Positions 8,299 through 28,200 of a stretch of 30,147 nucleotides of DNA are shown one piece after another. This stretch comes from a virus. Positions within the stretch are counted from its first letter, which is position 1. Every line of letters begins with the position of its first letter. The stretch covers positions 1 through 30,147 of the IMG/VR virus record IMGVR_UViG_3300025684_000048; one strand, given 5' to 3'. The notes below the pieces were generated by a model. It saw nothing but the letters and a program-made list of their open reading frames with translations. It did not search any database and had not been told where the DNA came from. The translations under genes and the position numbers were made by a program.

Positions 8299-9720
8299 AT
8301 GGCAGGTTCATTTACAGGAAGTGCAGGGGCATTAGCTCATTTAACTCCACGTCCAACACAAACATTATTTAATGATAACTATTTATCATTATCTCAATTA
8401 GATTTTACACAACAATTTTTACCGGAAGTATACGAAAAAGAAGTAGAGCGTTATGGAAACAGAACAATCTCTGGATTTTTACGTATGGTTGGTGCTGAAA
8501 TGCCAATGGCTTCAGATCAAGTAGTATGGTCAGAGCAAGGAAGATTACACATTGCTTACGATGATGTAACCGTAGTTTCTGCTACTTCTATTACTATTCC
8601 AGCTCAAAACGGGGCTTCTAAAAACCTTATTGGTCCTGGAGCTACTATCGTTATCGCTGATTCAACTGGATTGACTGTAGAGAAAGCATACGTTAGTGCA
8701 GTGTCTGTTGTCGCTGGTGTTGCAACTTTAACAATCGCTGGTTACGCAGGAGCTATCACTGTTACTGGAACTGGAAACGTTAAAGTATTCGTATACGGTT
8801 CTGAGTATGCTAAAGGTACTTCTAATGCAGGTACTTCAGTAGACGCTGCTTTCGAACAATTCAGCAACAAGCCAATTATCTTAAGAGATAAATACAATGT
8901 GAACGGTTCTGATACTGCTCAAATTGGATGGGTTGAAGTTACAACTGAAGCAGGAACTTCTGGTTACTTATGGTATTTAAAATCAGAGCACGAAGCAAGA
9001 ATTCGTTTCGAAGATCAATTAGAAATGACTATGATCGAAGCTGAAAAAGCTGCTTCTCCAATTACTCCAGCTGCTGGATTAGGTGGTGGATCTGAAATCA
9101 CTGGTACTGATGGATTATTTGCTGCTTTGGAAAACAGAGGGCTAGTATATTCTGACGCTGATTTTGGCGGTACTGATGGATTAGCTGACTTTGATTTAAT
9201 CTTACAAGAGTTAGACAAACAAGGAGCAATTGAGGAAAACATGATGTTCTTAGATAGAGCTTCTGCTTTAGGTATTGACAATATGTTAGCTGCTCAAAAT
9301 TCTTATGGTGCAGGAGGTACTTCTTATGGAGTATTCAACAACTCTGAGGATATGGCATTGAACTTAGGTTTCTCTGGATTCAGAAGAGGTTCTTATGACT
9401 TCTACAAAACTGACTGGAAATACTTAAATGACGCTACTACTCGTGGATTAGTAGGTGATGTTGAAGGAGTTATTGTACCAGCAGGAACTTCTACAGTTTA
9501 TGATCAACAATTAGGTAAAAACATTTCAAGACCATTCTTACACGTGCGTTATAGAGCTTCTGAAGCTGACGACAGAAAAATGAAATCTTGGATTACTGGA
9601 TCTGTTGGCGGTAACTACACAAGCGACGAAGATGCAATGAACGTTCACTTCTTATCAGAAAGATGTTTATGTGTACAAGGAGCTAACAACTTCGTATTGT
9701 TGAAAAAGATTTCAGCATAA
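8299..9720 (+). CDS. Major capsid protein
   Basis: A 473-residue protein, probably HK97-fold. Reasons: position after portal and scaffold, size, an N-arm (LTPRPTQTLFNDNYLSLSQL) followed by an E-loop-like segment (ERYGNRTISGFLRMVGAEMP), and a Gly/Ala-rich C-terminal half with long helices (FEDQLEMTMIEAEKAASP). Residues about 91-168 look like an inserted beta domain rich in Thr, Val, Ala and Gly (SATSITIPAQNG... GAITVTGTGNVKVFVYG), likely surface-exposed on the capsomer. Codon use differs from the neighbours: more TTC, AAC, ATC and GCT, as expected from translational selection on the most abundant virion protein. A hairpin 3' of the gene may limit read-through or stabilise the mRNA. No Shine-Dalgarno sequence; the leader is AAAAATTATGGCA. 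Confidence 0.8.
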   Translation: MAGSFTGSAGALAHLTPRPTQTLFNDNYLSLSQLDFTQQFLPEVYEKEVERYGNRTISGFLRMVGAEMPMASDQVVWSEQGRLHIAYDDVTVVSATSITIPAQNGASKNLIGPGATIVIADSTGLTVEKAYVSAVSVVAGVATLTIAGYAGAITVTGTGNVKVFVYGSEYAKGTSNAGTSVDAAFEQFSNKPIILRDKYNVNGSDTAQIGWVEVTTEAGTSGYLWYLKSEHEARIRFEDQLEMTMIEAEKAASPITPAAGLGGGSEITGTDGLFAALENRGLVYSDADFGGTDGLADFDLILQELDKQGAIEENMMFLDRASALGIDNMLAAQNSYGAGGTSYGVFNNSEDMALNLGFSGFRRGSYDFYKTDWKYLNDATTRGLVGDVEGVIVPAGTSTVYDQQLGKNISRPFLHVRYRASEADDRKMKSWITGSVGGNYTSDEDAMNVHFLSERCLCVQGANNFVLLKKISA

Positions 9721-9729
9721 TAAAGTAAT

Positions 9730-9770
9730 GTAATTCTTACCCTCGTTGTATCTACGGGGGTAATTATTAC
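9730..9770 (+). terminator. Hairpin after the capsid gene, likely partial terminator or mRNA-stabilising element
   Basis: The arms TTACCCTCG (9737-9745) and CGGGGGTAA (9755-9763) pair with one G-T wobble around a 9-base loop. After a 2x2 internal loop, GTAAT (9730-9734) pairs with ATTAC (9766-9770). The following sequence is T-rich but not an uninterrupted T-run (TCTTATTATATTTATAAC), so this could be a weak terminator or a 3'-end protector of the capsid transcript. Confidence 0.6.
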
Positions 9771-9807
9771 TCTTATTATATTTATAACTTTTTAATTTTA
9801 TTATATT

Positions 9808-10638
9808 ATGGCTAAACAAGCTACAGCAAAAGCACCTGAGGCTGTGCCTCAAGAACCTATTAGTGAAAAATTTGCACCAGTTAAAAAACAACCATCAGTG
9901 CCAAAATGGGAATATAAAGAAAGAACTTATTATTTAAGTACAGGCAAATCGCCATTAGTCTTTACATTAACAGCAAAACATAGTGGTAGAAAACCTTTAT
10001 TATGGTTTGATGAAGAATCTGGTTACCAAAGAGAATTAAGATACGCTACTAACCAAGCAAGTCCATTTGTAGACGAACAAAAAGGGCAGGCTACTTTAGG
10101 GCGAATCGTATTTAGAAACGGTGTTTTAACCGTAAAAAAAGAAGATGTTGCATTACAAAAATTATTGTCTTTGTATCATCCATTAAAAAATAAAGCTTAT
10201 GAGGAGCTCGATAAACAAGCGAATTCAATTAACGAACTTGATTGGATTGAATTTGAATTAGAAGCCCTTACAATGGCTAAAAACATTGATATAGAGCACG
10301 CAGAAGCTATATTAAGATCTGAGTTTGGCGAAAAAGTTACAACTTTATCCACAAGCGAGTTAAAAAGAGACTTAATGATTTTTGCTAAGAGAAATCCAGC
10401 TCTATTTATTGAATTAGCTAATGACGAATCTATTCAATTAAGAAACGTTGGAGCCAAAGCTGTAGAAGCTGGTATTTTAAAACTATCCGCTGATCAGAGA
10501 ACATTTACATACGGAGAGTCGAATAGAAAATTAATGACTGTTCCTTTTGATGAACATCCTTATTCAGCGTTAGCTGCTTATTTTAAGACTGACGATGGAA
10601 TGGAGGTTTACAAAGCGATATTAAAGAAACTTAAATAA
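9808..10638 (+). CDS. Virion-associated protein of unknown function
   Basis: A 276-residue protein. An N-terminal Ala/Pro/Lys-rich linker (1-32, with VKKQPSVPKWEYKER) leads into a compact domain at about 33-130: RTYYLSTGKSPLVFTL, GRKPLLWFDEESGYQREL, then RIVFRNGVLTVKKEDVALQ ending LLSLYHP. A helical C-terminal part follows (ELDWIEFELEALTMAKNI, AEAILRSEFGEKVTTLST). The pattern of strands with 'GYQRELRYATNQ.SPF' recurs after the capsid gene in related marine phages, which suggests a head-associated or head-completion protein, but no function is established to my knowledge. The C-terminal region with repeated short helices might be protein- or DNA-binding. It is preceded by the capsid hairpin and followed by another hairpin, so it may be its own transcript segment. 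Confidence 0.6.
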   Translation: MAKQATAKAPEAVPQEPISEKFAPVKKQPSVPKWEYKERTYYLSTGKSPLVFTLTAKHSGRKPLLWFDEESGYQRELRYATNQASPFVDEQKGQATLGRIVFRNGVLTVKKEDVALQKLLSLYHPLKNKAYEELDKQANSINELDWIEFELEALTMAKNIDIEHAEAILRSEFGEKVTTLSTSELKRDLMIFAKRNPALFIELANDESIQLRNVGAKAVEAGILKLSADQRTFTYGESNRKLMTVPFDEHPYSALAAYFKTDDGMEVYKAILKKLK

Positions 10639-10652
10639 GGTATGCGTTTTAT

Positions 10653-10681
10653 AGCGGTTAGGCCGCTTTTAATGTGGCCTA
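10653..10681 (+). terminator. Overlapping hairpins between head and connector genes
   Basis: A short stem AGCGG (10653-10657) / CCGCT (10663-10667) is followed at once by T residues to 10670, like a small intrinsic terminator. A competing stem, TAGGCC (10659-10664) / GGCCTA (10676-10681), uses bases of the first stem and its loop, so only one can form. This is seen directly; an attenuation role is inference. Confidence 0.5.
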
Positions 10682-10708
10682 CTAGCTATAAATTAAAAAC
10701 ACAAAAAA

Positions 10709-11398
10709 ATGGCGATTAACATAGACCAAGTCTACAAAAGCGTTCTAATTGTTTTAGAACAAGAAAAAAGAGGGGTATTAACACCTAATGAGTTTAACAA
10801 AATAGCTTCCCAAGCGCAGCAAGAGATTTTTACTCAGTATTTTGATGAGCTAAACCAATTATTGAGAATGCCACAAACCTCTTTAGCGTATGCGGACAGG
10901 ATGGCTTTGCTAGATGAGAAAATATCTTTATTTAAAAGAACAAGCGTTTTACCTGTAATTGCCGGCGCTGCAGAATTGCCTTCTCAAGTTCAAGAGCTCG
11001 GGTCTGTTGTTTACAATAATAGAGAGGTTCAGAGAATTCAAAGGCACGAATTGTACACAACAAATCAATCACCTTTAACTGCGCCTACAGCGTATTACCC
11101 AGTGTATATATACGAAAATAAACAAATTACTTTGTACCCTGCTAATTTAATTGGAGATGTTGAAGTGAATTACTTAAAATATCCTGAAAATCCTAAATGG
11201 GGCTTTACAATAGATCCAAATCTAGGTAATTATATATATAATAGCATTAGTTCTCAAGATTTTGAAATACATCAATCAGACCAACCATTATTAGTTAATA
11301 AAATATTAGGGTACGCGGGTGTAATGACAAAAGACCAACTTGCATTATCTATAGCAACACAAAAAGAACAACAAATCAATACCGACGGGCAAAAATAA
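10709..11398 (+). CDS. Connector/ring-like structural protein A (paralogue of the gene at 12008)
   Basis: A 229-residue protein. It aligns over its whole length with the product of 12008-12718: by eye about 29 of the first 55 residues match (IDxVYxxVLxxL, EFN..A.QAQ..IF.QYF), followed by shared EKISLF, SPLTAP/SDLTAP, DFEIHQSD/DFELHESE and KILGYAGV/KILELAGV. The family looks like a short-tailed phage neck or ring protein: a helical N-terminus, then beta strands (YYPVYIYENKQITLYPANL). Position between capsid and stabilization-like protein supports a head-tail connector or ring role, as for the stacked ring proteins of crAss-like phages. It forms a pair with the next gene (A-B) that is repeated as A'-B' downstream. 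The ATG follows an A-run, not a Shine-Dalgarno sequence. Confidence 0.65.
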   Translation: MAINIDQVYKSVLIVLEQEKRGVLTPNEFNKIASQAQQEIFTQYFDELNQLLRMPQTSLAYADRMALLDEKISLFKRTSVLPVIAGAAELPSQVQELGSVVYNNREVQRIQRHELYTTNQSPLTAPTAYYPVYIYENKQITLYPANLIGDVEVNYLKYPENPKWGFTIDPNLGNYIYNSISSQDFEIHQSDQPLLVNKILGYAGVMTKDQLALSIATQKEQQINTDGQK

Positions 11399-11407
11399 TA
11401 AAAGAAA

Positions 11408-11989
11408 ATGGCAGATACAAGTATAACAAACGCTTTTATATCTTTAAACGATATAATCAACAACTTTATAATCTCTTTCACCGGACCTGGTAAATTAATA
11501 CCCGACTCAAAAAGAACAGAGGTTGTATTTCACGCTAGAAGATCCTTACAAGAGTTCTCTTACGAAACATTAAAAGGTCAGTTTTTAGTAGAGCTAGCTA
11601 CGACACCTGCTACTTATGACTTACCTAAAGATTATGTAGCTATGGTATCAGTACAAGCAGATGATGTAATATTTTCAGAATCTGCTGCAAATACACCTGC
11701 GGAAAATAATTATTTTATTGACTACCCTAATTTGCAGGTTATATTAAGTGGCGATAATTTTAATGACCCAAATTTTAAAATAAAATATTTATCAAATGCT
11801 TTAACAACGGATGAATCCGCAGCTATTCCAAAGCTAGCCGAGGAAGCATTATATTCTTGTATTGTTTATGCAATACTTGCAAATAGAGAAAACACAAACC
11901 CAGGTTTGTTACAAAGATTATTAATAGAAAAGACAGATAAATTAGAAAAAGCAAAATCAAGACTAGTTTTTACTAATTTTTCTTCTTAA
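11408..11989 (+). CDS. Connector/ring-like structural protein B, short form (paralogue of the gene at 12722)
   Basis: A 193-residue protein. It shares with the product of 12722 the blocks FISLNDIINNFIISF / FISVNDIVNNFIIAY, KRTEVVFHARRSLQEFS / KRTDIVFHAKRGIQEFS, LPKDYV, KYLS/KYIS with TDE, and AEEALYSCIVYAILANR / AEEALYKYIAYSILATR. The ends are helical and the middle is beta-rich, the general build of P22 gp4 / tail-tubular-A-like connector proteins, an assignment made by analogy. It lacks about 75 residues in the middle, about 20 at the N-terminus and about 14 at the C-terminus that its paralogue has, so the copies have diverged in size. Its gene starts nine bases after A, so the two are surely co-translated. 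Confidence 0.63.
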   Translation: MADTSITNAFISLNDIINNFIISFTGPGKLIPDSKRTEVVFHARRSLQEFSYETLKGQFLVELATTPATYDLPKDYVAMVSVQADDVIFSESAANTPAENNYFIDYPNLQVILSGDNFNDPNFKIKYLSNALTTDESAAIPKLAEEALYSCIVYAILANRENTNPGLLQRLLIEKTDKLEKAKSRLVFTNFSS

Positions 11990-12007
11990 TAAAAAATAAA
12001 GCGGTAT

Positions 12008-12718
12008 ATGAGCGTAAGTATAGATACAGTTTACCAAAGAGTATTAAGCATACTTAATAAAGAACAAAGAGGATATGTAACGCCGCAAGAGTTTAATCTG
12101 TTTGCTAATCAAGCGCAAATGGATATATTTGAACAATATTTTTACGATTTAAGTCAATTTAATAGATTGCCTACTGATGGTAATGTTAATGCTGATATTC
12201 CCGCTTTAATTGAAGAAAAAATTTCTTTATTTGAGAAAACAGGCACAGCGGCTTTTAATGGTACTTACCATCAATTGCCATCAGATCTTTATCGTTTAAA
12301 TAACGTTTTTATGCGCTCCTACATCAGCCAGGATATTTATGATATAACCGAGGTTGAATTAGTAAGCCCTCAATATTTTTTACAACTTAATAAATCGGAT
12401 CTCACTGCTCCTTCTTCAAAATGGCCAATATACATACAAAGCGGTAAAAAAATTGAAATATTTCCACAATCTATATCGCAAAGCGCTAGCCTTTATTATA
12501 TTAAAAAACCAGCAAAGGTAGAATGGAAATACCAAATAGTATTTGGAGAAGCTCTGTACGATTCTACATATTCTGTAGATTTTGAATTACACGAGTCTGA
12601 GGAAACGGAATTAGTTATTAAAATACTAGAGCTAGCTGGGGTGTTGGTAAAAGACTTATCAGTATATCAAATAGCTAACGGTGAAGAACAAGAAGCTATT
12701 CAACAAGAAAAAGCATAA
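12008..12718 (+). CDS. Connector/ring-like structural protein A' (second copy)
   Basis: A 236-residue protein, the second member of the A family: MSVSIDTVYQRVLSIL, then TPQEFNLFANQAQMDIFEQY, EEKISLFEKTG, a middle beta region (KWPIYIQSGKKIEIFPQSI) and a C-terminal helix DFELHESEETELVIKILELA. It looks closer to the usual single-copy form I associate with related marine phages, so A (10709) may be the derived duplicate. It presumably forms or caps a ring in the neck between the portal and the stabilization-like protein. It is followed three bases later by B'. No catalytic motif, TM or signal peptide is seen. Confidence 0.65.
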   Translation: MSVSIDTVYQRVLSILNKEQRGYVTPQEFNLFANQAQMDIFEQYFYDLSQFNRLPTDGNVNADIPALIEEKISLFEKTGTAAFNGTYHQLPSDLYRLNNVFMRSYISQDIYDITEVELVSPQYFLQLNKSDLTAPSSKWPIYIQSGKKIEIFPQSISQSASLYYIKKPAKVEWKYQIVFGEALYDSTYSVDFELHESEETELVIKILELAGVLVKDLSVYQIANGEEQEAIQQEKA

Positions 12719-12721
12719 TAT

Positions 12722-13633
12722 ATGGGTTTAATAAATCAAACAGATGAACAGTACTACTTAGGATCTGATGGCGCTTGGAATAGTTTTGATGAAAACTACG
12801 GAAGCTACCAGTTCATTAGCGTGAATGATATTGTAAATAATTTTATAATAGCTTATGTTGGTGAACAAAAAATTATAAGCGCAATAAAAAGAACCGATAT
12901 AGTATTTCACGCAAAGCGCGGTATTCAAGAGTTTAGCTTTGACTTATTGCCATCTATAAAATCTCAAGAAATTGAAATCGGACCAAATTTAAACTTTATA
13001 TTACCTAAAGACTACGTTAACTATGTTAAGCTAACCTGGGCTGATCAAAGCGGTATAGAAAGGATTATATATCCAACAAGCAAGACTAGTAATCCATTAC
13101 CAATACTTCAGGACAATAATATGGAGTATTTATTTGACGAGCAAGACAGAGAGATACTAACCGCTGATGAATCTGAAACTAGAAAAAAATTTCAATCATC
13201 GGGAGGGCATAACAAAGATTATATAGAAAATATAAATAATGAGGACTTGCTTAATGGGGCATCGTTTGGGAGAAGGTATGGATTGAACCCGGAACATTCA
13301 CAGATTAACGGTGTATTTTATATAGATCCTTTGCAGGGTATTATATATTTTGACTCCTCTATGGTTAATAGAATCGTTACATTAAAATATATTTCAGACG
13401 GTTTAGGTACCGACGAAGAAATGGTTGTGCATAAATTTGCAGAAGAAGCTTTATATAAATATATCGCTTATTCTATTTTAGCAACAAGATCCGATACTCC
13501 GGAGTACCTTGTATCTAGGTACAAAAAAGAAGCGACCGCGGCTAGGCGAAATGCTAAAATACGTTTATCTAAAATCAAAATAGAGGAAATTACACAAATA
13601 ATGCGTAATAAATCCAAAATTATAAAACACTAG
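12722..13633 (+). CDS. Connector/ring-like structural protein B', long form
   Basis: A 303-residue paralogue of the 193-residue B. The conserved core is at about 31-105 (FISVNDIVNNFIIAYVG, KRTDIVFHAKRGIQEFS, LPKDYV) and about 220-285 (LKYISDGLGTDEE, AEEALYKYIAYSILATR, then a basic helix RRNAKIRLSKIK). Between them is an insertion of about 75 residues, hydrophilic and Asn/Glu/Gly-rich (DEQDREILTADESETRKKF, SSGGHNKDYIENIN), likely an exposed loop or small domain that could contact the tail. The last residues (MRNKSKIIKH) are strongly basic. The fold is probably P22 gp4 / connector-like by context. The downstream stabilization-like gene starts four bases after its stop, which suggests a stoichiometric assembly unit. 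Confidence 0.65.
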   Translation: MGLINQTDEQYYLGSDGAWNSFDENYGSYQFISVNDIVNNFIIAYVGEQKIISAIKRTDIVFHAKRGIQEFSFDLLPSIKSQEIEIGPNLNFILPKDYVNYVKLTWADQSGIERIIYPTSKTSNPLPILQDNNMEYLFDEQDREILTADESETRKKFQSSGGHNKDYIENINNEDLLNGASFGRRYGLNPEHSQINGVFYIDPLQGIIYFDSSMVNRIVTLKYISDGLGTDEEMVVHKFAEEALYKYIAYSILATRSDTPEYLVSRYKKEATAARRNAKIRLSKIKIEEITQIMRNKSKIIKH

Positions 13634-13636
13634 AGT

Positions 13637-16600
13637 ATGCCGGAATTGATCCATACGTTTACGTCAGGTAAAATGAATAAAGACCTTGACGAACGTTTAG
13701 TACCAAATGGCGAATACAGAGACGCTGTAAATTTAGAAATCTCTACCTCTAACGGTAGCAATGTTGGTGCTTTACAAAACATAGCAGGTAATGCTTCAAA
13801 ATTTTACAGAAGCTTAAACCCTAGTACAAATACATATACATCTTGGACAAGCGGGTATATCAATTCATTAATAAACCCTATTAAAATAGGTGAAATAAAA
13901 GACGATGTTAATGAAAAAATATACTGGTTTATAGCTAGCCAAGGAATTAGTGCTATTGCTGAGTATGATCAAAAAAATGAAATTGTATCTCCTATATTAG
14001 TTGATAAAAATAATATATTAAATTTTAGTACTAATTATTTAATAACAGGTATAAATATTATAGAAGGATTACTATTTTGGACAGATGACCAAACAGAGCC
14101 TAAAGTAATAAATATTAATGATTTTAAAAATGCTAATAAAAATAGCAATTTTTTAACGCACAGTATATTTTACGGAGCTGATGCTGATTTAGCAAGAGAC
14201 TTTATAGAATCAGATATAACCGTAATAAAGCAAAATCCTACAGAACCTTTAACCTTAGAGTTATCTAAAACTAGAGCTGTAGACGCTAATGGTAACCCTG
14301 CTGTTGTAGAAGGCACCACTAGTAAAAATTTTGTTATAGTAGATCCTAATGATCCGTTAGAAAAAATAGCTGCTCCAATCGGAACGCAGTTTACAATAGA
14401 TTGGATACCAAGCCCTTATCCTTTTTACTCTGTTGGTGATGTTTTATCATTCAAAGGTGCTGCTGAAATATCAGGCTCTTCTGTTCCTGAAGAATATGTG
14501 GTAAGAGCTAAAGTTTTAAGTGTACCTTCTGGTCCAACTCAAAAATTTGTTGATATTTCTGTATTATCAGTACCTGAAACAATACAAGATACTGCAATTA
14601 CTTGGGCTGTTACACTAGAGGAAGATCCATTTTTTGAATTTAAATTTCCAAGATTTGCATATAGATACAAATATAAGGATGGATATTATTCAGCATTTTC
14701 AACTTTTTCTGAAGTAGCTTTTTTACCAGGCGACTTTGATTATGAGCCTAAAAAAGGTTATAATTTGGGTATGGTTAATCAAATGAAACAATGCGTTATT
14801 AAGGGTTTTGCTGGATCATCCACGCCTATTGACGTTGTTGAAATTGATTTATTATATAAAGAGGCAAATAATCAAACAATATATGTTGTTGATACATTTA
14901 AAAGAAATAGTAGTATATGGAATGCAAATGAATTCAACATTAAATCTGAAATAATTTCTTCTGTACTACCTTCTAATCAAATACTAAGGGTATATGATAA
15001 TGTGCCTCGTAAAGCTAAAGCTCAGGAAATTACCGCAAACAGATTGATTTATGCGAATTATTTACAAAATTTTAATTTAGTAGATAATCTAGGTAAGTCA
15101 GTTGTTCCTGCTTTAGATGTATCTATTGCTCACAATAATAATTGGGATTGTATTTACGACGAAGAGGGTAATTGCACAGGGCATCAATTCAGTACCAATG
15201 GCGAATCACTTCAGAATATACCTTACAATTCTGTAAAAACTCAAAGAACCTACCAACTAGGAGTGGTGTTCCAGGATAAATACGGTCGTCAAACACCTGT
15301 TTTTACTTCTGAATCAGCTGCAACTACATTACAAAAAAATAATTCTATAAATTACAATAGTATAACTGTTCAAGCTAAAGGCAATAAACCAAAAGAATTT
15401 ACAAACTTTAGGTATTACGTAAAGGAAACATCGAATGAATATTACAATTTAGCGATGGATAGATGGTACGAAGCTGCTGATGGCAACATATGGATAAGCT
15501 TTTCTTCATCTGATAGAAACAAAGTTGACGAACAAACATTTTTAGAATTAAAAAAGCGTCACGACTCTAGTGATGCTGTATTGGAAGCTGCTAAATATAA
15601 AATAGTAGCTATATCAAATGAAGCTCCTACATTTTTAAAAGAAACCGTATCTGTTATTGGGCAAGTTTCTGGAGCTATAGATCCTACTAGTGCCCCGGAG
15701 TTTGGATTTCAATTGTTTAGGGTTAGAAAAGATACTGTAGATAACAGTCCGGCAAAAGCTATCTTAGATCCGTCTTCTATATCAAAAACTAGATTAATAA
15801 GGTTTTTTAATAGCCAGACTAGATCAAATTATTATAAAATATCAGGAAATGAAGCAGTTACCATAGAGGGAGTGGGTTGGTACCAGATTAGCATTGAAAA
15901 TAGTTTTGGGGACGATGTAAAATGGATGTTCGATGACTCTGATGCTCTTATCCCCGGCATTTCAACGGAATTTTCTTTGAAAGAATTTGAAAACAAACCA
16001 GAATTTGAAGGTAGATTTTTTGTAAAATTATTCAAAGATGCTACCTTACAGGAATATTTATTGAATAGTGCAAACTCTTCAAATTATGCTGTTGCTCAAG
16101 GTTTTGGTTTGGGGTGGACTGACGTTTATCTTAACCGAGGCGATATATTAAGCTCCAATTGGGAACAAGGTTTTTTTATAGATAATGGAGATGTTGCAGG
16201 CGCTCCTCCTGGTAGACAAAAGAGAGGAGGAGGGTTCACGATTGGAGGACAGGACTTAACAATAGGCTTTGCGGGTATATGGCCTGAAGGAGCTGATTTT
16301 GGAGTTGGAAAAACAGTGTATACACAATACAGGCAAGCAGTTAGTATATTAGAAAGTATAGGAGGATTATTTAGATTTAAAGAAGATCCAGACGGTGTAG
16401 TATATAAAATAAAATCAGTAGAGCCAGTAGAACGCTTTAGAAATTATCAACAACAGAAACAGAGACCAAGATTTAACGATGGCTCTAACAAAAGAAAAAG
16501 ATGGTATTTAAAGGTACAGCCTGTAGACCCCGCTAATGGAACCGGTTTATTTCAAGGCCCGTCTGGGTGGTCATTCCCCGCTCCAACCGGAACATATAGA

Positions 16601-18139
16601 GGTTGGAATCAACCTGGTTCTCCTCAAATACAGTTTTTGACAACTATAACTGATGGTACTACTTTTACATCTACAAATCCAGCTATATTCGAAACAGAGC
16701 CAAAGGAGTCTGCTGAATTAGAAATATATCATTCTGCTTCAAAAATATATCCAATTTCAGAATATGGGAATGCTCATAAGCTTAATTGGTTTAATTGCTA
16801 TTCATTTGGTAACGGTGTTGAGTCCGATAGAATACGAGATGATTTCAATGCAATAACTATTGACAACGGGCCAATAGTATCAGCGGTACTAAAAGAACCT
16901 TACAATGAAGAGCGTAGGCTTACTGGTTTAATATTTTCACAGATATTTAATTCAACATCAGGTGTCAACGACTTAAATCAATTCATTCAAGCTGAGTCTA
17001 TAACAAAAGATTTAAATCCTATATATAGCTCTATACAAAAACTTCACTCTAGAGATACCAATTTAGTAACTTTGTGCGAAGACAAATGTTTACGTATACT
17101 AGCTAATAAGGACGCTTTGTTCAACGCAGATGGAAATACAAACGTTACTTCTAACAATGCTGTCCTAGGCCAGGCAATTCCTTATGTTGGTGAATTTGGT
17201 ATTAGTAAAAATCCGGAAAGTTTTGCTTCTTACGGTTATAGAGTATATTTTACTGACAAAAGCAGAGGTGTCGTAATTAGATTATCAAATGATGGAATTG
17301 AAGATATATCAAGGTATGGTATGACTACTTTCTTTGCTGACAATTTAAAGAAATCAAGTGTTACATGGGGATCATTCGACGACGACAAAAGCGCCTATAA
17401 TATTTCTTTAGACAACTTAGATACTAAATGGAGCAGCAGGTTGGATGATGGTATTATAGAGAATGGAGTTACCACAGTATTTAACCCTACATCAACCGTA
17501 GTTAGTTTTAAAGAGGATATTAACGGATGGGAAAGCAGAAAGACTTTTAGCAACGAAGGTGGTATAACGCTGAACGACAGATATTATACATTCAAAAATG
17601 GTATCATTTGGGAACATAGGCAAGAAGGGGTTGTTCAGAATAATTTTTATGGCACTCAATATGATAGCGCGGTTACATTGTTATTAAACGAAGAACCTAC
17701 TATTGTAAAGAAATATAAAACTTTAAACTACACAGGTAGTGACTCAAGAAAATATGTGTATAGCAATGCGCAATATAGTGACCTAAGCTTAGCTGAGGTA
17801 AACGCTTTACAACTACAAAATGTAACAACTGAAAATTTAGATAGTAACGGTTGGTATACAAACTATATACAAACAGACTTGCAAAGCGGTTATGTAAAGC
17901 AATTTTTAAACAAGGAGAATAAATGGTTCCAGTATATAAAAGGGGACGCTACCTACTTCAATAGCAATACGGATAATAACATTGACTCGAAAGAATTTTC
18001 CGTGCAAGGGATAGGGAGGCCTTATTTTATAGCAGCGCAGGATGTATCTGATTTCAATGTTAAAGTCTTTGCAAGCACCGAGTGTAGTATATTAAACTTT
18101 AATGTTAGAGTATATGGTGACCCGCAATGCAACCAATAA
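13637..18139 (+). CDS. Tail stabilization protein, P22 gp10 / crAss muzzle-like
   Basis: A 1500-residue structural protein. The N-terminus carries a characteristic block, TFTSGKMNKDLDERLVPNGE at about 7-26, followed by YRDAVNLEIS and GALQNIAGN. It then continues as many beta strands with WFIASQGISAIAEYD and TYQLGVVFQDKYGRQTPVF (about 535-553), a segment typical of the stabilization/'nozzle' family. Family members form the hexameric nozzle or muzzle at the end of a short tail, plugging the channel until ejection. The length is far above P22 gp10 (about 470) but close to crAss-like muzzle proteins as I recall them. The C-terminal part (ECSILNFNVRVYGDPQCNQ) is beta-rich with two Cys and may face the cell. 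Placement after four connector genes and before fibre-like genes fits. No enzymatic motif recognised. Confidence 0.68.
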   Translation: MPELIHTFTSGKMNKDLDERLVPNGEYRDAVNLEISTSNGSNVGALQNIAGNASKFYRSLNPSTNTYTSWTSGYINSLINPIKIGEIKDDVNEKIYWFIASQGISAIAEYDQKNEIVSPILVDKNNILNFSTNYLITGINIIEGLLFWTDDQTEPKVININDFKNANKNSNFLTHSIFYGADADLARDFIESDITVIKQNPTEPLTLELSKTRAVDANGNPAVVEGTTSKNFVIVDPNDPLEKIAAPIGTQFTIDWIPSPYPFYSVGDVLSFKGAAEISGSSVPEEYVVRAKVLSVPSGPTQKFVDISVLSVPETIQDTAITWAVTLEEDPFFEFKFPRFAYRYKYKDGYYSAFSTFSEVAFLPGDFDYEPKKGYNLGMVNQMKQCVIKGFAGSSTPIDVVEIDLLYKEANNQTIYVVDTFKRNSSIWNANEFNIKSEIISSVLPSNQILRVYDNVPRKAKAQEITANRLIYANYLQNFNLVDNLGKSVVPALDVSIAHNNNWDCIYDEEGNCTGHQFSTNGESLQNIPYNSVKTQRTYQLGVVFQDKYGRQTPVFTSESAATTLQKNNSINYNSITVQAKGNKPKEFTNFRYYVKETSNEYYNLAMDRWYEAADGNIWISFSSSDRNKVDEQTFLELKKRHDSSDAVLEAAKYKIVAISNEAPTFLKETVSVIGQVSGAIDPTSAPEFGFQLFRVRKDTVDNSPAKAILDPSSISKTRLIRFFNSQTRSNYYKISGNEAVTIEGVGWYQISIENSFGDDVKWMFDDSDALIPGISTEFSLKEFENKPEFEGRFFVKLFKDATLQEYLLNSANSSNYAVAQGFGLGWTDVYLNRGDILSSNWEQGFFIDNGDVAGAPPGRQKRGGGFTIGGQDLTIGFAGIWPEGADFGVGKTVYTQYRQAVSILESIGGLFRFKEDPDGVVYKIKSVEPVERFRNYQQQKQRPRFNDGSNKRKRWYLKVQPVDPANGTGLFQGPSGWSFPAPTGTYRGWNQPGSPQIQFLTTITDGTTFTSTNPAIFETEPKESAELEIYHSASKIYPISEYGNAHKLNWFNCYSFGNGVESDRIRDDFNAITIDNGPIVSAVLKEPYNEERRLTGLIFSQIFNSTSGVNDLNQFIQAESITKDLNPIYSSIQKLHSRDTNLVTLCEDKCLRILANKDALFNADGNTNVTSNNAVLGQAIPYVGEFGISKNPESFASYGYRVYFTDKSRGVVIRLSNDGIEDISRYGMTTFFADNLKKSSVTWGSFDDDKSAYNISLDNLDTKWSSRLDDGIIENGVTTVFNPTSTVVSFKEDINGWESRKTFSNEGGITLNDRYYTFKNGIIWEHRQEGVVQNNFYGTQYDSAVTLLLNEEPTIVKKYKTLNYTGSDSRKYVYSNAQYSDLSLAEVNALQLQNVTTENLDSNGWYTNYIQTDLQSGYVKQFLNKENKWFQYIKGDATYFNSNTDNNIDSKEFSVQGIGRPYFIAAQDVSDFNVKVFASTECSILNFNVRVYGDPQCNQ

Positions 18140-18177: not shown

Positions 18178-19800
18178 ATGGCAACCCAATACGAGAATTT
18201 TTCTGTTTCAGAGGTGAACTTTATCCAAGCTGAAGGTAGCGATTTAAATGACTCAGGATCACACAGTATAGTAATCACTCCAAGCTCTGGTTTCACTGTT
18301 GCAGCTTCTGATTTTAGTTTAACTAGTCCTATACCTACTGGTATTACTAATTATTCTTTTGTTCAATCTGGCAGTAACGTGGTTTTAAATTTTGAATTTG
18401 CGGATAATACTATAATGCCAGGAAACAACATTGAGTTTCCTTTATGCATTCAAGGTAATGCTTCTGGTCAATTATATATAATAGATGGTAATTTTACAAT
18501 TAATACCCAAAATGCAATACCAACCAGTGAATCGGGACAATATTCCGTATCAGGTACTTTTGCAAGCACTACAAATGTTTTAACAAAGACTGTTACCGCT
18601 AATGGAGGGTTTTACTTTTTTGAGGAACCTCAAATATCATTAGCTATAGGCAATCCTAATAATTACACAATATCATCAAATAAAGTATACGATATAAACG
18701 CTAATTTAACATCTGTTACATTCAATGTATCTTACACTTTCCCAAATCAAAATATAAGCGGAGACTCAATAGTTATTCAGGCTGAGGCTATACCTATTGT
18801 TATACCTACGCAATATATAAATGCTTTTACATTGAACGGAACAAGTGGCGATGATTATGTTGCTAATGTTAATGGCGAAACATTAGTTTTAAACCTGTTT
18901 GGTGACGTTGGAGCTATATATTCAGTAGAATTAGTTGATGTCTCTTTAAACACAACGGTTTATGCTTCTAATGTAGCAATAAGCGGTAGTGGTACAGCGC
19001 AAATAGCGAACATATTAATACCAAATTACTCAGAAAATAAACATCCATACGAATTAAAAATAACAGGTGATATAAATCCTACTATTACAAATGACGGCGC
19101 TGGTGTAACAATAAGTATATCTCAGCAAGAACCTGTGTCAATTACAATTACTGCTACTAGTTCAGACCCTAATCTACTTATAGATGGAGTCCCTGATACA
19201 TTAATTCTATCACCAAACACTTCTTACGATCCTGGGTTTTTACCAAGATTAAACTTTAGCTTTAATGCAGCTTCAGCGGTTGGTTATATTATTGAAGAAA
19301 CAGTTATTTTAACAGCAAACTCGTTCAGTCCTGTAATACCTGATCTTTCAGCTGCTGGTTATACTTATTCAATAAGTAATTTAACGTCATCTTTAAATAG
19401 TAAAAATAACGTATTTACAGTATCTGGTACCATAGAAGTTTCTTCTACCGGTGGACAGCTTATTATACATACTTTAGATTTAGACACAGTGATAGATGTA
19501 ACACCTGGTTCAACTCAGTGGGATAGTGTTATTTTCTTATCTGAATGTTATTCTGCTTCCGGTATTGGTAGAACTATTACACCTATAAATATAGGAGATG
19601 TTACTGTTGGCACTAATCTAATGTGGAATAACGGCGGCAATTTAGAAACTTTACCTCAAGGTATTTACAGAATGTCAAATAGCTTAGTTAATAACCAAAC
19701 ATATAATGTTATAGAGATTTCATCTTCTGCATATTACATTGTAGTCAACTTTGGTGGAACTATAACTGATATTATTCAAGAATGCAATAACCCAACATAA
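18178..19800 (+). CDS. Beta-rich fibre-like structural protein with internal repeats
   Basis: A 540-residue protein rich in Ser, Thr, Asn, Ile and Val with few charges, as in Ig-like or beta-sandwich tail-fibre proteins. At least three divergent copies of a unit can be traced: around 37-100 (PSSGFTVAASDFSLTSP, later PGNNIEFPLCIQG), around 137-203 (TANGGFYFFEEPQISLAIG, later FPNQNISGDSIVIQAEA), and around 372-440 (LTANSFSPVIPDLSAAGYTY, later STGGQLIIHTL). The C-terminal 95 residues differ (SECYSASGIGRTITPINIGD) and could be a receptor-binding tip; they end CNNPT. It has no signal peptide. It follows the stabilization-like protein and overlaps its small partner by one base. Likely a tail fibre, appendage or head decoration; which is not decided by sequence. 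Confidence 0.55.
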   Translation: MATQYENFSVSEVNFIQAEGSDLNDSGSHSIVITPSSGFTVAASDFSLTSPIPTGITNYSFVQSGSNVVLNFEFADNTIMPGNNIEFPLCIQGNASGQLYIIDGNFTINTQNAIPTSESGQYSVSGTFASTTNVLTKTVTANGGFYFFEEPQISLAIGNPNNYTISSNKVYDINANLTSVTFNVSYTFPNQNISGDSIVIQAEAIPIVIPTQYINAFTLNGTSGDDYVANVNGETLVLNLFGDVGAIYSVELVDVSLNTTVYASNVAISGSGTAQIANILIPNYSENKHPYELKITGDINPTITNDGAGVTISISQQEPVSITITATSSDPNLLIDGVPDTLILSPNTSYDPGFLPRLNFSFNAASAVGYIIEETVILTANSFSPVIPDLSAAGYTYSISNLTSSLNSKNNVFTVSGTIEVSSTGGQLIIHTLDLDTVIDVTPGSTQWDSVIFLSECYSASGIGRTITPINIGDVTVGTNLMWNNGGNLETLPQGIYRMSNSLVNNQTYNVIEISSSAYYIVVNFGGTITDIIQECNNPT

Positions 19801-20141
19801 TGGATCAAATAACATTAAAATTTTCATATCCTATTAATACATCCGTTCAAGTAGGAGATATAACTTACTTTACTAATGCAACTAATGCATATAAAAGTAA
19901 TGATATAAAAAAGATAGGTAAGATATTAGCAATAGACCAAGCTACTAATACGTTGGAATGTGAAATTTCGCCTTCACAAGAAAGACCTGGCGCATCAAGC
20001 TTTATATTGTTTTCAAAAGATAATACCCAAAATACAGGATCTGTACTAGGGTATTATGCTAGATTACAGTTTAGAAATGATTCTACTGAGTATGCGGAAA
20101 TATTTTCAATTGGTTCTGAAGTGTTTGACAGTAGCAAATAA
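19800..20141 (+). CDS. Small structural protein, fibre-associated
   Basis: A 113-residue, probably all-beta protein: ITLKFSYPINTSVQVGDITY, KKIGKILAIDQATNTLECEI, then a C-terminal segment GYYARLQFRNDSTEYAEIFS ending SEVFDSSK. The closing pattern (GYYA..+F+NDST..AE+FS..SE.F.SSK) is one I recognise from small tail or virion proteins in marine phages, without a known role. Translation is coupled to the fibre-like gene: its ATG starts on the last base of the upstream TAA. It probably folds with, or attaches, the 540-residue protein. Confidence 0.58.
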   Translation: MDQITLKFSYPINTSVQVGDITYFTNATNAYKSNDIKKIGKILAIDQATNTLECEISPSQERPGASSFILFSKDNTQNTGSVLGYYARLQFRNDSTEYAEIFSIGSEVFDSSK

Positions 20142-22253: not shown

Positions 22254-25200
22254 ATGGAAGAATTATATAATCAACTATATAACGACGGGAAATACACAAA
22301 AACATTCGAAGATTTCAATGTTCAATTTGGATCTCCTGAAAAATCAGAAAAGTTATACCAAGCTTTAAATCAATCAGGGGACTATACTAGGTCCTTTGAT
22401 GAATTTAAAACACAGTTTAGTATACCAGCAAAGATACAAGACTCTGCGAGTGCGGATCCAACCGCGGAGTCAAGCCAAGAAGATACGGGATCCAAATCGG
22501 AAGAGCCTTTATCGGCGTGGCAATCTATTAAGAATACATTTAAAAAAGCAGGTGAACGTATCTACGATGTCGTTGAATTTTGGGGAGGTGAAGAAGGAGC
22601 TGGGTCTGGTTTAGATATAGCTACAAATTCATTTTACTCTTTATTATCAAGCCAAGAAGCTGTCGACGAATATGCAAAAAACAACCCTGGCTTTATGTCA
22701 GAAGGCTTAGGCTCGGAAGCTACTATAGAGGCTATAGAAAAATACAAAGCAGAACAAGATGAAAGTAATTTTGCTACTAAAGGGCTTGTGGCTAGCGCTA
22801 AAGATGGTGATGTAGGCGGCCTTATAGCTGGTGGTGTCGAAGCTTTAGTAAATGCTTTTTCTAGTGGCGTATATTTTTTAGGCACAGCCGGGGCAGGTGT
22901 TTTTTCTGAAGTAGCTGCTGAAAATTACATTACATATAATGAACAAAAAGCTGAAAACTTAGGCGTGTCCTTAGATGAACTTATTAGATCAGGTGAAGCA
23001 GATAATTTAGCTCCTGTTGGATTAGGTGCTGTTAGTGTTGGTCTAGAAAGATTTGGGTTTGGAAAAGTTTTAAAGGCTACTGCTGGCAAAAATATAATTA
23101 AAAACGCTAGCGCTAAACTTATATATAATAGAAAAGCTAGGAATGTTGCTAACATATTAGCCGCTGGAGGAACAGAGTTTACTACAGAAATACTACAGCA
23201 TGCCACAGATAAAATAAATGAAGAATTCGGTAGAACCGCAGGAACAGAAGAGGATGCTAAATTTGTACAAGCCACTTTTGACGCTATATTTAGTGAAGAA
23301 GGACTAGAATCCGGACTGCAAGGCTTAATAGGTGGAAGCGGAATGGTTGGCATTGGAACGAGCTATAGAGCTATGAATACAATAAGAACCACTGTAGACG
23401 GCGATTTAATTGACAAAAATTTAGAAGATTTAAGCAAGCTAAGGGTAAAATTAAATAAAGCGACTGATAAAACAGAAAAAGCCGGTATACAGAAACTAGT
23501 AGATACAAAAATATCTGAAATAGCTGACTCCGTAAGAAAAGGTAAAGATATATACGATAACCTTTCAGAAGGGCAATTAAAAGAAATAGAAAATTTAACA
23601 GATTTAGCTGATGTAGCCGCTTCTCAAGTTATAGAGCTAGATAAAAAGCTTAGAGCAGGTGAAATTGATAAAGCGGGGTATGATTTAGCTTATCAAGGCT
23701 TTAAGTCTGAATATGATGGAGTGCGGCAACAGCTTATTGACATGAACCTAGAGCAAAATATAAAAACCGCAGAGGATATTTCTAAAGAAAAAGGTTTGGA
23801 TTTAGATGTTATGACAACAGCTGGAGTTGAGGCTTTAATGAATAGTGATAAAGTAAGCGAACAAAATAGAAAAGATTATTTTGAAAATAAAGAAAAAGGC
23901 TTTGATGTATCTGCCTTCGCAATCGGTAACAAAATAGTTATAGATAAAGATATAGCTAAAAAGACAGGCTCAATTAACGCTGGGATGCATGAAGTTTTGC
24001 ACCCTGTATTTAACAAGCTTATTGGGAATGCTGAGCAGCAAGGCAAAATGGTTCGTCAATTTAGAAGAGCTATGACATCATCACAAAGAAGATTTGTTGA
24101 CGCTCAAATGAAAGAGAGGGGATATACAGGCAAAAAATACGATACGGAATATGTTAATGTGTTTTCTGATGCGCTTCGTAAAAAACAAATTAACTACGAT
24201 AAAACAACATTTGAAAAAATAGGTGATGCTGTTACAGGTATTTTTAAACCCGCAGGTTACACTAATATAGGCTTTGAATCAGGCGAAGATGTATATAATT
24301 TTGTTAAAGAATTTGACCAAAGCGCAGAACAAGGCAAATTAACAACGAAAGCAGCTGAAGCTCTTAAAGGTGTTGATTTAAGTGATGCTGGGCTACGAGA
24401 TGAATTGCAAACCTCTAAAACATTATCTCCAGAACAAACATCAGAAGTAACAAATGATATATTAGCTGTAAAACAATTAGCCGAGGAAGAGGCTGCTGTC
24501 GCTGCTAAATTTGGCAAAGAACCCATTAAAGGAGGTAAACAAGCTAGGCTAGAACAAAAAGTTGTATCAACATTGAAGCCTATCATAGACAAGGTAGTTA
24601 CAAATAGAACTCAAGCTTTATATGATCCCATAGCACCTGACGCTAAGAAAGCTGTTTCTAGGCAAGAGTTTCAAGAATCCATGCGCTCCGACCTGGAGGT
24701 AATGGTATTGAATGAGTATAATGGGTCTCAAGACATTGAAAAGTTTTTGATCAATAGAGGCTATTTAAGAGCAAACAACTTAGCTAAAAGATTAGGTATA
24801 GAATCACAAGAGGATGGTGGCATAAAATCTGATGTAACTGCGGCAAAAGACGTTGCTTCAACAGAAGACGTACAAACTATAGATAGAAGCGGCGCTGTAG
24901 AACGCGGTCAGGCAACTTTTAGTCAATTAGATTTAGTTGATGATACATTAATATCAGATACAGAAAAAGAGATCTCTAGAGAGCTTAAAACGCGTTCTGC
25001 TAAAGGAACATTATCCGAGAAAGTACCTTTAAAACTTAATAATAAAATTTATGAAACTTCTTGGTTAGAAAATTTCGTGGATAAAACATTATTTAAAAAG
25101 GTTCTAAAAAAATGGGGGACTATTGGAGAATCAAATGGTAAAACAAAAATACCAGGAGCCTACATTGACTTCCTTAATGATCAAAAGAATTTTGACATTA

Positions 25201-28200
25201 TAATGAAAGCTTTACCTGTGAAAACAATAAAGAAAAATTATTCTAAACTGTTTACATTAGAAAAGGTAGGTAGGGAGCTTACCGCAGAGGGTAATCCTAT
25301 TTTTAAAGTTGCCCCAATTGATAAAAAAACTTTTTTACAATACTTTTTAGACGGTAAGAAAACTACAATACTTGAAAGACAAAAGCAATTAGCTAGAGAA
25401 ATAATTACTCCGATAGCAAAAGAAACTTTAGCAAAATATACTACTCCTGAAAATTTATCTACATTAAAAGAAATGCAAGAGTTAGCTCCGGATGTTTCTG
25501 CTGATATTATTAATAAAATAAGCTTAGAGGAGGCTTTACGTAATTTAGAATCTCAAATAGATAGATACAAAGGGGAAGAAAAAAGTTTTGATATTATTCA
25601 GTTTAGCAAAAGCATAACGCCTGGATACAAAAAAAATATAGCATCAGCTTTAGAAACCATTGTAAATGAAGAATCTAATTCAAGCTTTAACCAAGCTGTT
25701 GCACAGGACATATTAAATAAATTAGATGATGTAAAAACGTTTAAAGATTTAGCTAACTTACTATGGAACGCTGGAGATAAAACCCTTGGGTTAGCAGCAC
25801 TTAGGGAGTACAGGGTTGAATTACTTAAATTATTAAATAATAAATTAAATTCCCTCAACGCTGATATACCGAAATTAATAATTAGCGCTGTCTATCAAAG
25901 TCATAATAAAGTATTCAAAAAGCAACAAAAGGTCATTGGATATGCTTATGGTATGGCAAAATTCTCTAGTGATTTTAAAAACGCTAAAGGTGATGTAAAA
26001 AAAGCTATTATTGTTGAAAACTTCTTAAAATTTGTTAGTAGATCTATTCGTACGCTTAAAATAGATGGAATTACAACAAATAGAGCTATATATAATGATT
26101 TGCTTGTACCTATCATGGGAGATCCTACTAAGTATGGGTTTACGCTTACCGAAGAAAAAGTAGGTAATAGAATACAATCTTACATAAACAAAGACGGCAA
26201 AAGACTTTATGGATTAGCTGATATTACAATGATAAAATCTAATTTTGAAAACTCCAGAAGCACAATTAACAAAGAAGCTATAGAAGTTAGAAAATGGTTA
26301 ATGAACGAAGCTAAAGAAGCTATTAAAAACAAAGATATAGATGCTTTTATAGGTTTTTTATCTTTATTATCCGCGGATCAAAGAGGGGTTATACGTAAAA
26401 TGAGTAGCGCAGGGTTTAGTTTTGCAAATTTAATAGTCAAGGACACTGTATTAGAACACGAGACAGAAGCTTTAGATATATTTAATGCTTGGAAATCTTT
26501 TGCTCAAAGAAAACTAAGTGAAGCAAAATTAATAAAATTCTTAAAAGAATCTAAAGTAAATTTAGTTTCTAAAGAATTTGACGGAATATTAAAAGAAGCT
26601 AGGAAAAAAGTTTCAGGAGCAAAAAACATAGGCAAAGCTAGATACGAAAGTATTGCTCCAAAAACATACATTGCAAATCTTAAGAAAAAAGGACTTATAC
26701 TACAGCCATCTAAGAGCCAAGGTACTGAAGTAATGCAAGCTTCTAAAACTCTTAATAAAGATTTTAACAATATAATAGAGAACGAAACTAAAATAAGCGG
26801 TAAATCTACTATATCAGAGGCAAAAAGCAGAATGCTTGGTAAAAATAAAGGAGGTTGGAGGTTCTTTGTGCCGCCATCAGCGGATGACTTTGCTGGATTA
26901 ATGTATAGATTACTTGGCAAAGGTGATACTGGTAATAAGAACGCTAAATGGTTTAAAGATAATTTATTTGATCCTTATGGAAAAGGTATTAGAGATTTTG
27001 AATCTTACAAGCAGCAAACAGTACAGTCTTTTAGAAACTTAAAGAAAAGCATAAAGAACGTTCCAAAAAACCTTGGTAAAACAAATGAAACAGGGTTTAC
27101 CAACGATGTAGCTGTCAGAGTATACCTTTGGAACAAAAAAGGAATTGACATACCAGGGTTAGACAAAAATGATATAAAAGAATTAATCGGTATAGTAAAT
27201 AATAACCAAGACTTTAAAAACTTTGCAGATCAGGTTGAAAATTTATTACAAGGTTATCCAGAACCCGAAAATAATTGGTTAGCCGGTACTATTACAACAG
27301 ATGTTATTAACAAGATTAATACATCGAAAAGAGAAGAATTTTTACAGGAGTGGCAAGCTAATGCTGATGAAGTATTTTCTAAAGAGAATATTAATAAACT
27401 TAGAGCTGCTTTTGGAGAAGACTATGTAGAGGCTTTAGAAGATATGCTTTATAGAATGAAGACTGGTAGAAACCGACCGTCTGGCTCAAATAAATTAACA
27501 AATCAATTTATGAATTGGGTTAATGATTCTGTTGGTACTATTATGTTCTTTAACACTAGATCAGCATTATTACAAACGTTATCTATAGCTAACTTTATAA
27601 ACTGGGGTGATAATAATCCTATAAATGCAGCTAAAGCTTTCGCTAATCAAAAACAATTTTGGGGCGACTTTACTATGCTATTTAACTCAGATTTCCTAAA
27701 ACAAAGAAGATCAGGATTAAAAACTGATATTAACGCTGATGATATTGCAAGCGCAGCGGAAACATCAACGAATAAGGCCAAAGCAGCATTGTCATCTATA
27801 TTAAAAATGGGATTCTTACCAACACAAATAGCGGATAGTTTTGCTATTGCAATGGGTGGAGCTTCGTTCTTAAGAAATAGAATAGATAGTTATATTAAAG
27901 AGGGATTGTCTCAACAAGAAGCAGAAAGCAAAGCATTTTTAGATTTTCAAGAAGTAGCTGAAGAAACTCAGCAATCATCAAGACCTGATAGAATATCACA
28001 ACAACAAGCGAGTCCCTTAGGTCGTATTATATTAGCTTTTGCAAATACCCCTATGCAGTATATGCGTTTGACTAAAAAAGCTATACTAGACATAAAAAAC
28101 AAAAGGGGTGATTTAAAAACAAACATATCTAAAATAGTTTACTATACCGCAATACAAAACATAATATTTGCTAGTTTACAAGCAGCTTTATTTGCTTCAT

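Follow-up and report, generated by a model that had tools for sequence, protein, structure and literature searches.

How a phage comes to carry two pairs of paralogous genes at its neck, where its nearest relatives carry one, and what the second pair contributes, are the questions raised by the IMG/VR virus record IMGVR_UViG_3300025684_000048, a marine virus of bacteria whose entire stretch of 30,147 bases we refer to as the window. Its genes run in the order terminase, portal, 400-residue protein, MCP, SCA, A, B, A′, B′ and muzzle protein. The major capsid-like protein, MCP (8299–9720), owes its name to its position and its PHROG category, its BLASTP match to crAss001 gp32 is only a weak one (E = 0.03), and SCA (9808–10638) is our label for the small protein that follows it; as conserved upstream neighbours, the two (8299–10638, plus strand) define the background that we call clade I. 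On the same strand follow A (10709–11398, 229 residues), B (11408–11989, 193 residues), A′ (12008–12718, 236 residues), B′ (12722–13633, 303 residues) and the muzzle-type protein (13637–18139, 1500 residues), a putative distal barrel partner that matches phrog_14478 and, with 33.8 bits at a curated cut-off of 27 bits, the Pfam family PF25729 (crAss_MUZ_C).

Several features of the wider locus deserve mention. Just upstream of the terminase lies a gene for a co-chaperonin GroES-like protein (1576–2169; phrog_13932, E = 7.5e-15), and a GroES is annotated near the equivalent place in Panino and Elemovirus. Both also encode very large proteins where the window has a 2166-residue protein (22254–28754) without convincing family match. 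The reading frame at 19800–20141 and residues 1288–1390 in the C-terminal part of the muzzle protein match different parts of phrog_18548, which, as far as these alignments go, suggests that the two parts are fused in other phages or that the muzzle protein was split.

Paralogy of the two gene pairs

A and A′ align over their whole length with 38% identity (231 aligned positions, E = 6e-51), and B and B′ with 30% identity over 252 positions, 75 of which are gap positions (E = 8e-26). Moreover, A and A′ both match phrog_14543, while B and B′ both match phrog_13977, the match of B′ spanning nearly its full length; both are virion-protein PHROGs. These alignments bear out the preliminary description of the locus as two paralogue pairs in the order A-B-A′-B′, including its count of 29 identities among the first 55 residues of A and A′. 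Its view that B′ had gained about 75 residues, by contrast, has to be reversed: the long form is ancestral, as it is found in single-pair relatives, with lengths of about 269–290 residues for B-type proteins in cultured single-pair phages, and it is the cassette-type B, mostly 189–211 residues long, that lost an internal stretch of about 80–110 residues which resident B′ proteins retain. A profile comparison between A-type and B-type proteins, asking for a common ancestor of all four genes, gave no signal.

The same gene order with homologous A-type and B-type genes, but with one pair only before a muzzle-like gene, is found in Maribacter phage Panino, in Elemovirus and in the Cellulophaga phages phi38:1 (Pervagoviridae) and phi13:2 (Pachyviridae), the A-type gene of phi13:2 being assigned by its position only. 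One pair also occupies this place in all 80 of the IMG/VR loci nearest to A′. We refer to A′, which has its orthologue in these 80 loci, and to B′, which has its orthologue in the single-pair relatives, as the resident genes, and to A-B as the cassette (10709–12007, plus strand), about 1.3 kb that begin with the start codon of A and end immediately ahead of that of A′. A search for annotated phage DNA resembling the region at the nucleotide level found none.

Origin and borders of the A-B cassette

The adjacent tandem order, with both A and B paralogous to their neighbours, invites the conclusion that the pair was duplicated in place within this lineage, as had been proposed earlier. The identities of the individual genes point elsewhere. 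Compared with L085, a locus of the distant clade II, the window shares 85% identity in A and 86% in B, against 56% in the portal, 57% in MCP, 57% in SCA, 38% in A′ and 49% in B′; compared with the clade I locus L003, which is without separate A or B, identities are 84% in the portal, 86% in MCP and 67% in SCA. In phylogenetic trees, all cassette A sequences form one clade (support 100/100), as do all cassette B sequences (100/100), and both clades are nested inside clade II, where the sister of the window copy is that of L085 (support 99/94 for A and 100/99 for B). Accordingly, AU tests rejected a grouping of the cassette copies of the window and of a second clade I carrier, L235, with the resident genes of clade I (p = 0.0024 for A and 2.4e-25 for B). 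Genes duplicated in place should be mutual closest relatives within their lineage; in the trees and AU tests they were not, A and B being nearer to clade II than to their neighbours, and the single pair in all 80 nearest loci likewise speaks against such an event. Trees, AU tests and per-gene identities thus reject duplication in place, to which we assign next to no probability; what stands of the earlier proposal is that A-B as a whole is paralogous to A′-B′.

The nesting in clade II, together with the AU tests, rather indicates that A-B is a cassette that was duplicated once, elsewhere, and then exchanged sideways. Most simply, to judge from the trees, its history would comprise a single older duplication of the pair in clade II, followed by transfer; we infer both the donor, a clade II phage near L085, and the direction of the transfer. 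The amino-acid divergence is consistent with transfer, dN amounting to 0.10 for A and 0.08 for B, but to 0.31 for MCP. A and B both have low dN/dS and are thus maintained by selection. Synonymous sites are saturated, which prevents a dating of the transfer.

The cassette is bordered by two start codons, those of A and A′. Ahead of A, the window has a leader like that of the single A′ in clade I; where A begins, similarity switches to clade II (L085), this match fades past the stop codon of B, and clade I sequence resumes at the start codon of A′. The first border lies just downstream of a hairpin (10649–10690, plus strand) that precedes the first neck gene and is common to clade I leaders; across clade I it is conserved with compensating changes, and in 5 of the 14 pairs of its consensus structure both bases are altered in one sequence or more. 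It may be a processing site or a weak terminator that separates the neck genes from those of the head. At the equivalent place, clade II leaders, among them that of L085, have a different G+C-rich inverted repeat.

Such an exchange is also seen in a near-isogenic pair, L085, which has the cassette, and L174, which is without it. Their MCPs are 99% identical, their DNA is 95.7% identical upstream and 92.7% downstream of the cassette, and the swap again occurs at the start codon. A′ and B′ also diverge more than the flanks in this pair, and a longer block may therefore have been exchanged. The idea that the cassette causes an altered muzzle was discarded, as the muzzle starts of L085 and L174 are almost identical.

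Since the window is one metagenomic record, and we found no second contig with its cassette on its background, one might suspect an assembly chimera of a clade I and a clade II phage. Such an artefact would need two in-frame switches exactly between genes, the same as in dozens of independent contigs. Furthermore, a scan with an alignment of cassette B sequences uncovered two more clade I carriers, L235 and L243, with MCPs 90% identical to that of the window and the same gene arrangement. The L235 cassette differs from that of the window (67% identity in A, 56% in B), and the L243 contig ends within B. As these loci carry a different cassette on a clade I background, the window is no lone chimera, and we consider this explanation very improbable. 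AU tests rejected the cassettes of the window and L235 as sisters for B (p = 8e-83), but not for A (p = 0.22); clade I thus probably received the cassette twice.

Two MCP-based scans imposed no selection on the neck genes. Near the window, 52 of 53 decidable loci were without cassette and one was ambiguous; near L085 in clade II, the cassette was present in 3 of 51 loci. Scans with A and B retrieved about fifty A-B-A′-B′ loci, some of which share one contig, in a database sampling that is biased by the queries used; these loci are members of clade II, and outside it cassette-type A and B are rare. On a quick MCP tree of 119 loci, cassette presence changes at least 15 times, 14 of these changes being forced by well-supported branches. 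A scan of genome contigs confirmed no cassette A in bacterial genomes.

A few loci depart from the common layout. L327 (8395–10308) has a single pair, in which a cassette-like A (256 bits to A) stands beside a resident-like B2; its neck is possibly a hybrid that arose by recombination between A and A′, going by these similarities. In L367 (9063–9434), A, A′ and B′ are intact, but the open frame of cassette B is shortened to some 120 residues, perhaps reflecting a decaying cassette or a sequencing error. In L108 and L149, which lie on the same contig, the portal gene is split over four open frames and the gene after it over two, which looks like sequencing frameshifts of that contig.

The variable segment of the resident A′ protein

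Cassette carriers also stand out in the resident A′ gene. In the window, residues 48–165 of A′ (12149–12502, plus strand), which take in the last part of helix 2, helix 3 and the greater part of the beta-sandwich, are less than 40% identical to every single-pair relative searched, while the N-terminal end reaches 96% and the C-terminal end 82%. Likewise, the carrier L235 and the single-pair locus L279 have MCPs that are 96% identical, but only 33–34% identity in the A′ segment; here, the two ends of A′ that flank the segment are conserved in their DNA, showing that the segment itself was singled out. Between the two carriers, the window and L235, the segment is 57% identical. In all 12 of the closest pairs of loci with and without cassette, the segment is less alike than MCP identity predicts, its mean percentile being 0.03 in these pairs and 0.38 in pairs that are both without cassette, compared with 0.22 for B′ in the with/without pairs.

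The cassette brings, or selects for, a different domain in the neighbouring A′. In part, the change in the segment could reflect the linked exchange of a longer block. The segment does not seem to stem from clade II, as its best matches are weak and belong to clade I, none exceeding 39% before L235 was considered. Nor is it a perfect marker of the cassette: its tree requires 13 state changes, compared with 18 for the MCP tree and 14 for B′, and carriers vary in the segment among themselves, as exemplified by L093 and L367. Based on these sequence comparisons, the segment of helix 3 and beta-sandwich is likely the surface that meets a cassette ring.

Predicted ring folds and their implications for the neck

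The preliminary description had assigned both gene types to the neck or connector, and the predicted folds agree with this. We made AF2 monomer models of A′ and B and compared them to known structures with Foldseek. Both models show the helical domain and beta-sandwich of the ring fold. The A′ model (pLDDT 87) best matched the phiCrAss001 ring proteins R4/5 gp34 (7qoj_E, E = 2.9e-9) and R3 gp35, followed by SU10 adaptors, and the B model (pLDDT 79) best matched R1 gp43 (7qog_B, E = 3.7e-7), followed by other podovirus adaptors; the matches of the two models extend to the adaptors of SU10 and T7 and to related ones. The TM-scores are moderate (0.56–0.61 for A′, at most 0.47 for B), and the fold is common to all podovirus adaptors. 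At the sequence level, BLASTP against the crAss001 rings gave E-values of 0.2 and 1.3 only, PDB profile searches did not return these chains, and neither single proteins nor profiles gave anything meaningful when searched against PDB chains, leaving the fold search as the only successful approach. With sequence similarity to the crAss001 rings undetectable, our claim concerns fold and place, not orthology. Against the Pfam family PF24175 (SU10_adaptor, cut-off 27 bits), A scored 29.7 bits, A′ (18.8) and B (15.1) stayed below the cut-off, and B′ had no match. On the basis of the models, A-type proteins are predicted to be R4/5-like and B-type proteins R1-like tail-barrel ring proteins.

In phiCrAss001, four ring proteins build five stacked dodecamers of about 23 nm (PMC10172136), whereas most phages with adaptors of the SU10, P22 gp4 or T7 gp11 type have been described with one ring of one protein (PMC10172136). 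The window resembles phiCrAss001, with its R1 gp43, R2 gp40, R3 gp35 and R4/5 gp34, in the predicted fold, in having several paralogous ring genes and in a similar gene order, with the ring genes (A, B, A′ and B′, before the crAss_MUZ_C protein) placed between capsid genes and muzzle gene. However, the ring genes of phiCrAss001 are scattered and were duplicated singly within the genome lineage, whereas here an R4/5-like and R1-like pair was duplicated as a unit, travels from phage to phage, and is found in some loci but missing from others of nearly identical background. Multi-ring necks and the paralogy of ring genes are already known from Crassvirales; the limited open-access literature that we searched holds no transferable ring pair that is present or absent on near-identical capsid backgrounds.

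Taken as a whole, the data are in our view best explained by a transferable two-gene neck-ring cassette that adds two internal rings, a reading that we hold to be rather probable. The A-B pair would have arisen once, by duplication of an A′-B′ pair in marine clade II, and recombination would insert or remove it directly in front of the resident A′, at its start codon; the window would have obtained its copy from a clade II phage near L085. As in the phiCrAss001 barrel, each protein would form a dodecameric ring, with A resembling R4/5 and B resembling R1, and the cassette would give rise to a barrel of four rings instead of two. Portal and muzzle can stay as they are whether the cassette is there or not, which makes an internal position of its rings most likely; portal, B′ and muzzle would then constitute the fixed ends, with a cassette ring contacting the A′ beta-domain, for example, as a guess, in the order portal, B′, A, B, A′, muzzle. 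If the additional stretch of B′ docks something at the portal end, cassette B would be a plainer spacer ring. The formation of rings, their number and order, and the longer barrel are likewise inferred.

The imported proteins could instead be incorporated into mixed rings, A with A′ and B with B′, leaving barrel length unchanged and, for instance, reconciling the 12-fold symmetry of the barrel with the 6-fold symmetry of the muzzle. The residues that define the fold are the same in A and A′, covariation of the A′ beta-domain with the cassette would also be expected from side-by-side contacts, and gp34 of crAss001 adopts two conformations at the muzzle (PMC10172136). Yet the multi-ring barrel of phiCrAss001 consists of homomeric stacked rings (PMC10172136), A and A′ are only 38% identical, and the lack of the long B′ stretch in cassette B is awkward for alternation within one ring, making mixed rings unlikely in our opinion. 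Still less probable, we think, is that the imported products add no rings at all, but take the place of A′ or B′ in part of the virions, or act in assembly or as spare parts. The cassette is indeed patchy and dispensable at the level of the clade, and the resident A′ of the window is divergent, as if its constraint had changed; however, every complete carrier retains all four genes with open frames, purifying selection acts on A and B, and the ends of the resident A′ are strongly conserved.

If the cassette does add two internal rings, the exchange of this ready-made two-gene unit may let viruses of this kind acquire or shed neck rings. We give roughly even chances to the wider claim that neck length is exchangeable in this way, a two-ring module being gained or lost as one cassette while a matching A′ beta-domain is swapped or re-evolved, and that near-isogenic two-ring and four-ring phages exist whose capsid and muzzle are the same. 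The authors of the phiCrAss001 structure proposed that a barrel encoded by fewer ring genes could be shorter, and that its length may aid the tail in crossing the host capsule (PMC10172136). As L085 and L174, and likewise L235 and L279, differ in the number of ring genes on an almost unchanged capsid background, this idea becomes directly testable. The phage neck, commonly regarded as a rigid core of co-adapted parts, would here act like a plug-in module that, to judge from the sequences, probably docks on the A′ beta-domain.
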